Below are positions 4,457 through 22,964 of a stretch of 35,546 nucleotides of DNA, one piece after another; the stretch's first letter is position 1, and each line of letters opens with the position of its first letter. A program made the position numbers and the translations under genes. Origin of the DNA: Akkermansia sp. (lineage in GTDB: Bacteria; Verrucomicrobiota; Verrucomicrobiia; Verrucomicrobiales; Akkermansiaceae); the NCBI GenBank assembly GCA_017504805.1, contig JAFVQN010000158.1:1-35546 (forward strand), in the 5' to 3' direction. The notes beneath the pieces are model-generated. The model had not been told where the DNA came from. It saw only the letters and a list, made by a program, of their open reading frames with translations, and searched no databases.

Positions 4457-4492
4457 TTGACGTTGACCGGAAGGCGTATGATATGATAACAT
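4457..4492 (+). promoter_or_regulatory. Possible promoter before the acyltransferase gene
   Basis: Overlapping sigma-70-like options: TTGACC (4463-4468) with TAACAT (4487-4492) at 18 bases, leaving nine bases to the GTG at 4502, or TTGACG (4457-4462) with TATGAT (4482-4487) at 19 bases. Spacing is not ideal in either reading, so this is tentative. Confidence 0.35.
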
Positions 4493-4501
4493 TGGAATGA
4501 G

Positions 4502-6298
4502 GTGTTGAAGACACACCTGCGCAATGTTATGAAAGCAAAAATCATGGATCTCAGGGAGTATCTGCCGGGGAGCAGCAAATGGCCGGAGTGGCTCCTTAAT
4601 CTGGGGGAACGACTTCTGGGATTTCATATTTTCAACGTTGCGCACTCCAGAATCGAGGAAGAGCAGGAAGCCGGGTCCACGGAGAATTTCTTCCGTCTGG
4701 CCTGCAAGCATCTTCCCCTGAACTATGAACTCCGGGGGATTGAGAACATACCGGCGGAGGGGGCATGTGTCATCGTGAGCAACCACCCGCACGGCATGTC
4801 GGACGGCTTGATGATTGGCGATGTTGCCATGAAGGTGCGCAGCGATGTACGCATCGTCGTGAATGATTTCCTGCACTGTGTGCGAGGTATGCGCCCGTAC
4901 CAGATTACAGTGGATGTCTACGGAGGAGAGGAAGCCAAACGCGCCAACATGGCAGGCATGCGCGAAATGCTCAAGTGGCTGCGGGACGGGCATTGTCTCA
5001 TTATCTTCCCGAGCGGCTCAGCGGCTTCGTGGTCAGAGGCAGACGGGCGCGTGATTGATGACCCGTGGCAGACCAACATGGCCAGCATCATCCGCAAGAC
5101 CAAAGCTACGGTGGTACCCATGCACTTTTCCGGCGAAAACGGGGCCTTATTCCAGCTGGTAACCCGTCTTTGCAAGAGCCGGCGTTCTGCCTTCCTGCCC
5201 CGCGAAATCAAGCGGGACCGCCAGACGCTGCACCAGGTGCGTGTGGGCAAGGCAATACCTGCGAGCCGGCTTGAATTGCTGGAAAGCGACCAGGCACTGT
5301 CTGATTTCCTGCGTCTCAACAGCATGCTGCTGCGCTATGATGAGCCCGGCACCACAGCCTGCGGCGGGGAGGTGCGCCAGATGGCAGACATAGCGCCACC
5401 GGCGGACCCGCTGCTGCTGCAGGAGGAAATCGACTCCCTGCCCCAGGAGGAACACCTGTTATACACGCACAGCAGTACCGGGCTGCAGATCTACACGGCC
5501 AAAGGCAGGCAGATACCCAGACTGCTCCACGAAATCGGGGTGCAGCGTGAAATCACCTTCCGCGCCGTAGGGGAAGGCTCAGGCACCGCCTGTGATACAG
5601 ATGACTACGACCAGTACTACGACCATCTCATCATGTGGGACCCGGCCGAGCACCGGATTGCGGGAGCCTACCGCATGGGGCGCACAGATGAAATCCTGGC
5701 CTCGCACGGCGCGGACGGCATCTATAACTCCGAATTCTTCACCCTGGGCAGCCAGTTCCTGGATTACGTACACCACGGCATGGAAATGGGCCGGGCTTTC
5801 ATCACCGCTCCGTACCAGAAGCACCCAGCTTCACTCGATACACTCTGGATGGGCATAGGCCGCTTCGTACTCAGGCACCCGCAGTACCGCTACCTGTATG
5901 GGACCGTCAGTGTTTCTGCAGATTATTCCCCCCGCTCCCGCATGCTGATTCTGGAATACCTGCAGCACCACTGCATGAACAGCCAGATGGCAAAGCATGT
6001 GCAGGCCAAGACGCCACCGGAAAGAATGAACATGCTCAGCGAGGACGCTCGGCTCATTCCCGCGGGGCTGGCGGATCTGCGGTTGCTTTCCGCCATGGTC
6101 AGCGATATTGAGCCGGATGGTCGCAGCATACCGGTGCTGCTGAGGCAATATCTGCGCCTGGGCGGCGAAATGATATCCTTCAATGTGGACAGCGAGTTCG
6201 GACACACGCTGGATGCTCTGGTGGTGGTAGATTTGTACCACGCACCGGAGAGACTCATGACGCGCTACTGCGGAGCACCGTTAAAATCTGAGCCCTGA
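4502..6298 (+). CDS. Two-domain acyltransferase (LPLAT + GNAT), OlsF-like aminolipid synthase candidate
   Basis: 598 residues with two acyltransferase modules. The N-terminal part (about 60-280) is a PlsC-type lysophospholipid acyltransferase domain with an H-x5-D motif, NHPHGMSD (His95, Asp101), and FPSG at 169-172. The C-terminal part (about 320-590) matches the OlsB-like GNAT N-acyltransferases: ITFRAVGEGSG, a DTDDYDQYYDHLIMWD block, then IAGAYRMG. This order, O-acyltransferase then N-acyltransferase, is that of OlsF, which makes ornithine lipids from ornithine and two acyl chains. The exact head group cannot be read from sequence; glycine or another amine is possible. The start is uncertain: GTG at 4502 gives the full frame, and ATG codons at 4529 and 4544 are alternatives. 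No strong membrane helix is seen, so peripheral inner-membrane location is expected. Confidence 0.8.
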   Translation: MLKTHLRNVMKAKIMDLREYLPGSSKWPEWLLNLGERLLGFHIFNVAHSRIEEEQEAGSTENFFRLACKHLPLNYELRGIENIPAEGACVIVSNHPHGMSDGLMIGDVAMKVRSDVRIVVNDFLHCVRGMRPYQITVDVYGGEEAKRANMAGMREMLKWLRDGHCLIIFPSGSAASWSEADGRVIDDPWQTNMASIIRKTKATVVPMHFSGENGALFQLVTRLCKSRRSAFLPREIKRDRQTLHQVRVGKAIPASRLELLESDQALSDFLRLNSMLLRYDEPGTTACGGEVRQMADIAPPADPLLLQEEIDSLPQEEHLLYTHSSTGLQIYTAKGRQIPRLLHEIGVQREITFRAVGEGSGTACDTDDYDQYYDHLIMWDPAEHRIAGAYRMGRTDEILASHGADGIYNSEFFTLGSQFLDYVHHGMEMGRAFITAPYQKHPASLDTLWMGIGRFVLRHPQYRYLYGTVSVSADYSPRSRMLILEYLQHHCMNSQMAKHVQAKTPPERMNMLSEDARLIPAGLADLRLLSAMVSDIEPDGRSIPVLLRQYLRLGGEMISFNVDSEFGHTLDALVVVDLYHAPERLMTRYCGAPLKSEP

Positions 6299-6351: not shown

Positions 6352-8793
6352 ATGGGGAAGCATCAGAAACATTCATCCAGAAGGCGCTCACGGGTAGCGT
6401 TAGCCCTTGTATTAGGTGGCATTGCGCAGCTGCCGGTGCAAGGGGCGAATTTTGTACCTCTGCCGGAGGATATCTTTGACAACCAGGGGGATCCGAATCC
6501 CATCATGGATATTACGCACCGCACCGTGGCGGGATTGGGGAATCAGGCTCCGGAAATTCCGAATGAGCTGAACGTGACCAACGAGAACGGCACCATCTCC
6601 TACGATCATGAGAAAAACAGTTTTCTCTACCAGGGGTCCACTGAAAATCCGATCCGACTGCGCACTGATAGCGGGTCGGACATCATTGCGCCGGCATTGG
6701 AAGCGAAACTGGAAACAGGGGAAGCCATCATCTCCGGCCCCATGCAGGTATACCAGGAGGACGTGCTGATCAAGGGCGCAGATGGAGGTTTCTATAACTG
6801 GAAGGAGAAGCGGACGGAGGTCAAGGATGTGCGCATCAAGGTCAATGGTCTGATGGTGCGCGGCTCGCGCATCGAATACGCCACCGATGCTGAAGGTAAG
6901 GAATTCATCACCGTGTACGACGCCTATGTCACCACGGAGGACGTCCAGAAGCCATCCACCTGGCTGGGCACCGGGACACTGACCATCTACCCCGGCGACT
7001 ACGGCAGGGTCTCGCGCCTGAGCATTGCCACAGAAAATGACGAATACACCATTCCGATACTGGGCTGGTTCACGTTCTCTCACTCTCTGAATCCGCGTGA
7101 AGGCTACATGCCCGGGGCCGGCACGAGGTCCGACTGGGGCGCCTATCTGGAAAACAGCTACGGTATCCTATTCGGCAACAGGCGCGTGGACGGCATCATG
7201 CCGACAGCAGATTACCTGGCAACGCTGCATCTGGATGTCCGAACCCGCCGTGGGCTTGCCACGGGACTGGATCTGGAGGACATCGGCATGACTAAAAAGC
7301 ACAAGGACATGACGGGGTTCGCCTCCTATTTTGCCCAGGACAGTGACCCCATGATTAACCCCCTGGACACCCCGCGCAAACCCACCAACCACCAGCGATA
7401 CCAGGTATCTCTGAAAGCGCTCTGGGATGTCACGCCTGATAGCGACACAACCAGCGAATGGCAGCTGGTATCCAACGTCAATGTGGTGAGCGACCGCTAC
7501 ATGCTGCGAGATTTCCTTCCGGATATCAGCCGCACGGATGACAAGCCGGATAACACGGTACGCCTGGTGCGCCGGACCGACTCCACGCAAAGCATGATAT
7601 ACACACGCTTTGCGCCGAATGATTACTACATGACCGATGAGCGCATCGAGGCCTCATTCTACCGCGTGCGCTCCGCCATCGGCAATACCGGCATCAACTA
7701 CGAAACCAACAACTCGGCCTGCATCATGCGGCAGTACCTGCCCACCGATATAAGGCAGAACTACAAGGACCGCGTAAACAACCTCCGGGATGGTGCCCTG
7801 AAGGATTACTATTCACGACTGCTGAATACCGAAAGCTATTTCCGAGTCAACACCACGCACGAGTTCACGACCAATCTGACCCTGTTCAAGTTCCTGAACA
7901 TCACGCCGAAAACCGGCGGTGCCTACACCGGTTATTACGATGTGGGCGGCATCGGGTCTGATAACCGATTCCTCGGTTACATCGGCTGCGACTTCAACCT
8001 GAAGTTCCACGGTTCTTACCCTGATTTCGCCTGGAAATCCTTTGGTATGAAGGGGCTTTCACACCTCATTCAGCCATATGCCAACTACTCCCAGGGTACC
8101 ATTTCGTCTTCTAATAAGCACGTACCCCGGATTGACGCGTGGTCCAGCACCATGGGCGGCAGCACCATCAGCCCGATTCCCATGGACCTGAGCGGTTACG
8201 CCGGCATCGACGGCTGGGGGAACTGGAACATCTGGCGTCTGGGCGTCAAGAACTCACTTTCCACCACGGTGGATGGCGAACGCCACCGCTTCCTGAGCTG
8301 GGATACCTTTGTGGACTACAATCTGGATAATCCTAATTCAGACTACTCTTTCTCCAACCTGTACAATGTCATCAGCCTGAGCTTCAACAACCGGGTGGAG
8401 TTCTACGGAACCATCCAGACCCCGACCATCAACAACGGCGAAGGATTCAGGCAGTACAGCATCACCTCCCGAATCATCCCGGCCGCCTGGCTTGAGACAT
8501 ATTTCACCTTCTCCTCCATCACAGACCACCCGACTCAGCTTGACTCCGAGCAGCTGAGGCTCCAGGCGAATGTTCGACTCAATGAGAAGTACACCATCTC
8601 TGCCAAGTGGTATTATGATATCACGGAAGGCCGCCTGCCCATCCATCAGTATTCCCTGTTCAGACATGCAGGGGCCTGGTATATCGGCGCCACGGTGTTC
8701 CTCCGTGATAACGGTGGTAAGAAGGAACAGGGCTTCGGCATCTCATTCACCCTGGGCGAGACGGGTACAGCCCTGCCCATCAGCCTGCTCTAA
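6352..8793 (+). CDS. lptD: LPS-assembly protein LptD-like outer-membrane barrel
   Basis: 813 residues. An arginine-rich start with a hydrophobic stretch (VALALVLGGIAQLP, about 16-29) forms a signal peptide cut near the QGA at 30-32. An OstA-like periplasmic beta region follows (about 60-230), then a long series of alternating aromatic strands typical of an outer-membrane barrel. The junction YMPGAGTRSDWGAYLENSYG and the DVRTRRGLATGLDLE strand match the LptD pattern, where a glycine- and proline-rich turn precedes the first strands. LptD works with LptE to insert lipopolysaccharide in the outer leaflet. The protein ends in LPISLL rather than the common terminal phenylalanine. It has its own promoter and a large hairpin after the stop. 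A different OstA-family barrel is the main alternative. Confidence 0.75.
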   Translation: MGKHQKHSSRRRSRVALALVLGGIAQLPVQGANFVPLPEDIFDNQGDPNPIMDITHRTVAGLGNQAPEIPNELNVTNENGTISYDHEKNSFLYQGSTENPIRLRTDSGSDIIAPALEAKLETGEAIISGPMQVYQEDVLIKGADGGFYNWKEKRTEVKDVRIKVNGLMVRGSRIEYATDAEGKEFITVYDAYVTTEDVQKPSTWLGTGTLTIYPGDYGRVSRLSIATENDEYTIPILGWFTFSHSLNPREGYMPGAGTRSDWGAYLENSYGILFGNRRVDGIMPTADYLATLHLDVRTRRGLATGLDLEDIGMTKKHKDMTGFASYFAQDSDPMINPLDTPRKPTNHQRYQVSLKALWDVTPDSDTTSEWQLVSNVNVVSDRYMLRDFLPDISRTDDKPDNTVRLVRRTDSTQSMIYTRFAPNDYYMTDERIEASFYRVRSAIGNTGINYETNNSACIMRQYLPTDIRQNYKDRVNNLRDGALKDYYSRLLNTESYFRVNTTHEFTTNLTLFKFLNITPKTGGAYTGYYDVGGIGSDNRFLGYIGCDFNLKFHGSYPDFAWKSFGMKGLSHLIQPYANYSQGTISSSNKHVPRIDAWSSTMGGSTISPIPMDLSGYAGIDGWGNWNIWRLGVKNSLSTTVDGERHRFLSWDTFVDYNLDNPNSDYSFSNLYNVISLSFNNRVEFYGTIQTPTINNGEGFRQYSITSRIIPAAWLETYFTFSSITDHPTQLDSEQLRLQANVRLNEKYTISAKWYYDITEGRLPIHQYSLFRHAGAWYIGATVFLRDNGGKKEQGFGISFTLGETGTALPISLL

Positions 8794-21559: not shown

Positions 21560-22816
21560 TCAGCGGGTGAGTCCATCGCGCTTGGCCTGGTTCCAATACG
21601 CATATTCGGAGCGGTTGAAGTCCACGTACTCGGGCGAAAGATCCGTGGTGTACACCACGTATTCCTCATCACCAAGGTTGAGGTTGATACGAATCTCAAA
21701 CTCACGTGCCTGCACCAGCTCGCGCAGATCATCACTCGGGGTATCAGTCTGTTCGCCACCACGGCATGCGGGCAAGCCTGCAATGTCGATGTCAATCTTC
21801 TCCTCAACCACGCGGGTACCGGAATAACCCACCGCGTGGATGATGCGCCCCCAGTTCGGGTCGCCTCCGTTCCAGGAGCTCTTCACGAGGTTGGACTTCG
21901 CCACGCCTTCGGCCACCTTCCTGGCCTCTTCCTGGCAGGGGGCGCCTTCCACCTTCACCGTCACAAACTTGGTGACTCGCTCCCCATCCTGCACGATTCG
22001 CTTTGCCTGCTCAAGCATGACGTGGTGCAACGCATCCACGAATTCCTGCCAGCCGTCTGCACCCGGTGCCAGCTGGACCCCGGAAGCCCCGTTGGCCATG
22101 ACGAGCGTTGTATCATTCGTGCTCATATCGCCGTCAATCGTGATGCGGTTGAAGGAGTGTTCCACCCCATCGCGCACAATGGCCTCCAGATCTTCACGAG
22201 CCACGCCGGCATCCGTGCAAATAAGGCAGATCATCGTAGCCATGCAGGGAGAAATCATGCCGGCTCCCTTGCAGCAGGAACCAATGCGGACTGGCTTGCC
22301 GCCGATGGAGATTTCCACAGCTACCTCTTTTTCCCGCGTATCGCTGGTGATGATGGCAGAAGCTACGTCATGCCCCTTGGCTGCGGACAAATTGCTGCAC
22401 AACTCCGGCAGGCGGGGGGTAATACGCATCATCGGCATCGGCAGCCCAATCACGCCGGTGGAACAAACCGCCACCTCGCTCGGGGTAAGCCCCAGCTGCT
22501 CTGCCACCACGCGGCACTCCAGGCGGGCATCCTCCACCCCTCGCACGCCGGTGCAGGCATTGGCATTGCCGCTGTTGGCCACGATGGCACGGATGTTGCC
22601 GCGACTCAGGTGGTGCTCACTCACACGCACACAGGCTGCGCGCACGCGGTTCGTTGTAAAGGTACCGGCAGAGGTGGCCGGAAGCTCGGAATACACCAGC
22701 GCCAGATCCAGACGCGTAGCCTCCGGCTTCTTGATACCACAGCTCAGCGCATTGGCCACAAATCCCCTCGCGGCGGTCACGCCTCCTTCTATGCTCTTCA
22801 TCGTGCAATCAGACAT
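21560..22816 (-). CDS. argJ: Bifunctional glutamate N-acetyltransferase / ornithine acetyltransferase
   Basis: 418 residues, the usual ArgJ length. It recycles the acetyl group from N-acetylornithine to glutamate in arginine synthesis. The precursor cleaves itself before the Thr of the MATM motif, seen here in KGAGMISPCMATMI. FNRITIDGDMSTNDT and LVMANG are also conserved. The frame is open back to 22954, but the sensible start is the ATG at 22816, which gives the normal N-terminus. A -10-like TAGATT ends five bases before this ATG. The product N-acetylglutamate and the freed ornithine would also feed an ornithine-lipid pathway, if the acyltransferase at 4502 uses ornithine. Confidence 0.95.
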   Translation of the reverse strand: MSDCTMKSIEGGVTAARGFVANALSCGIKKPEATRLDLALVYSELPATSAGTFTTNRVRAACVRVSEHHLSRGNIRAIVANSGNANACTGVRGVEDARLECRVVAEQLGLTPSEVAVCSTGVIGLPMPMMRITPRLPELCSNLSAAKGHDVASAIITSDTREKEVAVEISIGGKPVRIGSCCKGAGMISPCMATMICLICTDAGVAREDLEAIVRDGVEHSFNRITIDGDMSTNDTTLVMANGASGVQLAPGADGWQEFVDALHHVMLEQAKRIVQDGERVTKFVTVKVEGAPCQEEARKVAEGVAKSNLVKSSWNGGDPNWGRIIHAVGYSGTRVVEEKIDIDIAGLPACRGGEQTDTPSDDLRELVQAREFEIRINLNLGDEEYVVYTTDLSPEYVDFNRSEYAYWNQAKRDGLTR

Positions 22817-22821
22817 AATCA

Positions 22822-22827
22822 AATCTA
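22822..22827 (-). promoter_or_regulatory. -10-like box upstream of argJ
   Basis: On the minus strand TAGATT ends five bases before the ATG at 22816. No good -35 is seen at 16-18 bases, so support is partial. Confidence 0.35.
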
Positions 22828-22964
22828 CGATTCTTTGTACTCCCCTAATTTGCCACACTCGCTGCTTTTCTTCAAGCATAAATGCCTGATATGGCACAAT
22901 ACTGCCATCGACATGCAGATGTTTCCAATGCAAAATGCCTCCTAGATTCCTCACGTGGCATTGG

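Follow-up and report, generated by a model that had tools for sequence, protein, structure and literature searches.

A fused OlsF-type acyltransferase gene as candidate ornithine-lipid synthase in Akkermansia

The DNA analyzed, a stretch of 35,546 nucleotides from Akkermansia sp. (hereafter the window), contains on its forward strand an open reading frame (4502-6298) which Pfam and profile matches place among the OlsF-type fused acyltransferases. Counted from the GTG at 4502, it encodes 598 amino acid residues. The true start is probably the ATG at 4529, which gives a protein of 589 residues, since the start of a close relative (L183) falls on the corresponding methionine and residues 1-9 show pLDDT values below 50 in the AlphaFold2 model. 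Between ftsQ and this gene there is a weak sigma-70-like site (4463-4492, forward strand) with a 9/12 match, which is only suggestive; the region holds three sites of this grade, where 1.1 would be expected. The nearest named relatives of the protein come from metagenome-assembled genomes of Akkermansia sp., mostly from herbivore guts, and the best of them is 76% identical.

Upstream of the gene, the window shows murC-murB, ddl and ftsQ, and downstream, on the same strand, a gene (6352-8793) for a possible LptD-like outer-membrane protein. The first-pass annotation had named the two flanking genes ftsQ and lptD. The former is backed by a POTRA_1 match in Pfam; the latter stands less firmly. 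Its product of 813 residues shows almost no family match, LptD_N (PF03968) was detected in one of five homologues with an E-value of 0.054, a profile search of the PDB gave nothing useful, and the AlphaFold2 model, built from three sequences and mainly beta-strand, is poor, with a mean pLDDT of 42.5. The protein is possibly a divergent LptD. From the place of the gene after ftsQ and before lptD, a role in the envelope had also been argued. Besides the doubt about lptD, this argument finds no support in the neighborhood, which is not shared: murC-murB, ddl and ftsQ do not adjoin the gene in any of 28 other Akkermansia stretches, some of them from the same genomes and some short. Linkage to the dcw cluster was therefore rejected as a functional clue, and the location is regarded as incidental. 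A homologue of 6352-8793 follows the gene in 13 of the 28 stretches, all belonging to the window's clade and none to the A. muciniphila clade.

Three Pfam families match the protein above their curated cut-offs. PF19576 (Acyltransf_2) covers residues 63-275 with an E-value of 1.8e-19 and PF01553 residues 76-209, while PF13444 (Acetyltransf_5) covers residues 349-444 with an E-value of 3.1e-19. In the N-terminal half, the best family is PF19576 (70 bits, against 39 bits for PF01553), which is of the OlsF/GlsA type. The N-terminal O-acyltransferase domain, of the PlsC superfamily, is encoded at 4688-5326, and the C-terminal GNAT N-acyltransferase domain, whose LasI/FeeM-like fold extends over residues 320-595 approximately, at 5459-6286.

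Both N-terminal motifs reported from the sequence beforehand were found: NHPHGMSD at residues 94-101 (4781-4804) and FPSG at residues 169-172 (5006-5017). The first has HX5D spacing (H95 to D101), with an aspartate that is sometimes glutamate across the family; the PlsC motif is HX4D. The GNAT domain shows VGEG at residues 356-359 (5567-5578), of the OlsF type, where GlsB has GGG at the last three positions, and EMGR at residues 428-431 (5783-5794). Alignments of relatives with 12 and 47 rows, the latter over the whole protein length, show H95, F169, R349, F353, D365, R391, E428 and R431 as invariant.

The AlphaFold2 model of the protein has a mean pLDDT of 91.4 and a pTM of 0.89. Its N-terminal half resembles PlsC (PDB: 5kym, Z 16.0), the closest solved structure, and a plant glycerol-3-phosphate acyltransferase (PDB: 1k30, Z 15.0), and its C-terminal half resembles LasI (Z 15.3), RpaI (Z 14.8) and FeeM, an N-acyl amino acid synthase (Z 14.6), all of them enzymes whose acyl acceptor is the nitrogen of a small amino compound.

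Over its full length, the protein matches OlsF (NF052615) best, with 369.7 bits over positions 16-569 of the 570 in the profile. PF19576 at the N-terminus and PF13444 at the C-terminus of one polypeptide is the arrangement of the OlsF family in the wide sense, in which the V. cholerae and Flavobacterium enzymes are included. The same domains, in the same order and at the same length, are found in the OlsF proteins of S. proteamaculans (Spro_2569), V. cholerae (VC0489 and VCA0646) and Flavobacterium johnsoniae (Fjoh_0833), which also share the NHPxG, FPxG, GEG and E(L/M)GR motifs and the full-length profile match. Sequence identity is about 30% with OlsF of the enterobacterial type and 35-36% with Vibrio OlsF-type proteins; Vibrio and Enterobacter sequences stood in for the V. 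cholerae and S. proteamaculans enzymes in these comparisons and in the trees. The score of the window protein lies below the equivalog cut-off of NF052615 (620 bits), as do those of the A. muciniphila orthologue (394.4 bits) and of the Vibrio (428 bits) and Flavobacterium (414 bits) proteins; the Enterobacter protein scores 793 bits. This cut-off delimits the enterobacterial subgroup and not the function as such, since the V. cholerae OlsF enzymes, only 30-33% identical to that of Serratia, yield ornithine lipid in E. coli (PMC12186959).

Phylogenetic trees of each domain place the Akkermansia proteins in a single clade among OlsF-type proteins, with support of 100/98 for the GNAT domain and 100/100 for the O-acyltransferase domain, and GlsB and GlsA apart from them on a branch with full support. 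The exact place of enterobacterial OlsF in these trees is unsure because its branch is long. The first GNAT motif follows the same division, with GEG in OlsF-type proteins, VGEG in those of Akkermansia and GGG in GlsB. Domain order, profile match, fold, motifs and trees thus bear out the earlier description of an OlsF-like fusion, with PlsC-type and GNAT domains in one protein.

Exactly one gene with PF13444 was found in 74 of 76 Akkermansia genomes, and the frames have about 590-690 residues, except for one truncated at the edge of its contig and another that is longer. The gene was not found in G102 and G151, which are drafts (94% and 79% complete), so that its loss there is unproven. The A. 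muciniphila type strain (G146), whose genome forms one contig of 2,664,102 bp, shows one copy, located on the complement at 702,450-704,291, which encodes a protein of 613 residues that is 46.6% identical to the window protein. Two other pathways, OlsB/OlsA and OlsH/OlsI, lead to the same product as the one proposed here. The OlsB profiles (NF052554 and NF052555) match the window protein with 55.8 and 49.7 bits, against cut-offs of 320-350 bits. The GH3 family (PF03321), to which OlsH belongs and which marks the third ornithine-lipid pathway (PMC12493201), was found in none of 63 Akkermansia genomes, nor was a FeeM-family gene found in the four genomes searched for it; both the GH3 route and a FeeM-type synthase were therefore rejected as alternatives in Akkermansia.

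Ornithine lipids rank among the dominant lipids of A. muciniphila at 0.02 to 2 mM phosphate, regardless of phosphate, and occur in its vesicles too (PMC9981464). This independence of phosphate sets the A. muciniphila lipid apart from VC0489. The structure of one of them has been solved, with 15:0 esterified to (3R)-hydroxy-16:0 that is amide-linked to L-ornithine (PMC12710885). Our search of the literature, mostly of open-access journal papers, found no published Akkermansia OlsF or OlsB gene. By elimination among known pathways, the single PF13444 copy throughout the genus and the absence of a GH3 route point to the family of the window gene. The window gene is very likely an OlsF-type bifunctional ornithine-lipid synthase, and its A. 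muciniphila orthologue the synthase of the ornithine lipids measured there. The head group, which the first-pass annotation had left open, can be narrowed with good confidence and is most probably ornithine, since A. muciniphila, a species of the same genus with an orthologue, makes ornithine lipids; these lipid data belong to A. muciniphila and not to the species of the window.

By analogy with OlsF, the GNAT domain would attach a (3R)-hydroxyacyl group to the nitrogen of ornithine, after which the N-terminal PF19576 domain would add another fatty acyl group as an ester at the 3-hydroxyl. The predicted product would equal the published A. muciniphila structure; the acyl donor, the order of the steps and the assignment of gene to lipid are inferred. 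An ornithine-forming enzyme is present in the genome of the window, as argJ, encoding ornithine acetyltransferase, is located at 21560-22954 on the reverse strand, 15 kb from the OlsF-type gene. ArgJ has no match in the type-strain genome of A. muciniphila, whose ornithine must therefore have another source.

The fused protein might instead make glycine lipids, as GlsB and GlsA do in Bacteroides. The domains of these enzymes, which are encoded by two separate genes, are homologous to those of the window protein, and their profiles match its two halves with 135.3 and 103 bits, respectively. Nevertheless, these scores are far below both the cut-offs (300 bits for GlsB, NF053696, which also has GGG in the first GNAT motif, and 260 bits for GlsA) and the OlsF score. 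The VGEG motif in place of GGG and both domain trees set the window protein apart from the glycine-lipid enzymes at the level of sequence. Furthermore, the study that found ornithine lipids in A. muciniphila found none in B. thetaiotaomicron (PMC9981464), and glycine-lipid synthesis is considered very improbable. It is also hardly credible that the two domains work outside a common pathway, with an N-terminal half that acylates phospholipids and a GNAT half that forms only an N-acyl amino acid. The automatic annotation of relatives as 'lysophospholipid acyltransferase' and the structural closeness of the N-terminal half to PlsC would agree with such a division; however, PF19576 outscores PF01553 in that half, and sister genera often encode the halves by separate genes close together, which is what partners in a shared pathway would be expected to show.

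A bifunctional enzyme that, in the species of the window, uses a different amino acid (lysine, serine or glutamine) or several for the head group of its aminolipid is a quite unlikely reading. OlsF relatives are suspected of lysine-lipid synthesis (PMC11631085), and 46.6% identity to the A. muciniphila protein leaves room for a change of specificity, but every motif position compared is common to A. muciniphila and OlsF-type proteins, and Akkermansia forms one well supported clade. We also hold it unlikely that the enzymes of the Akkermansia branch differ in function from known OlsF, serving constitutively as housekeeping ornithine-lipid synthases and perhaps using a further head group in the clade of the window. 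If this were true, Akkermansia species would differ in the immune-active aminolipids that they display to the host.

An OlsF-type ornithine-lipid synthase is an already known kind of enzyme, and the value of the window gene lies in pointing to a gene that may account for an Akkermansia lipid of medical interest. Published work reports that A. muciniphila ornithine lipids influence the response of macrophages and that they are altered in colitis (PMC9981464, PMC12710885). A paper of December 2025 states that the responsible genes of A. muciniphila 'have not yet been identified' and counts this as a gap in knowledge (PMC12710885). The A. muciniphila orthologue is the best candidate for the gene behind these immune-active lipids, and a single-copy, genus-wide candidate whose exact position in the type strain is known makes this documented gap directly testable.

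Related arrangements were observed outside Akkermansia. Two further genera of the Akkermansiaceae have fused relatives (L022, 8074-9861; L023, 935-2728; L024, 8840-10573; L025, 4595-6331) with IGAG instead of VGEG, on a long branch of their own; the head group of these proteins may be a different one. Many other Akkermansiaceae (L026-L033) have the two domains as separate nearby genes with the GEG motif, of OlsF-type rather than GlsB-type look. In Bacteroides finegoldii and Parabacteroides distasonis (L039, 38-3320; L040, 1-3144), the glycine-lipid pair glsA-glsB is located near rsmH in divergent orientation, and in Bacteroides near mraZ too. Both rsmH and mraZ belong to the start of the dcw cluster, and the position of the pair parallels the ftsQ neighborhood of the window.
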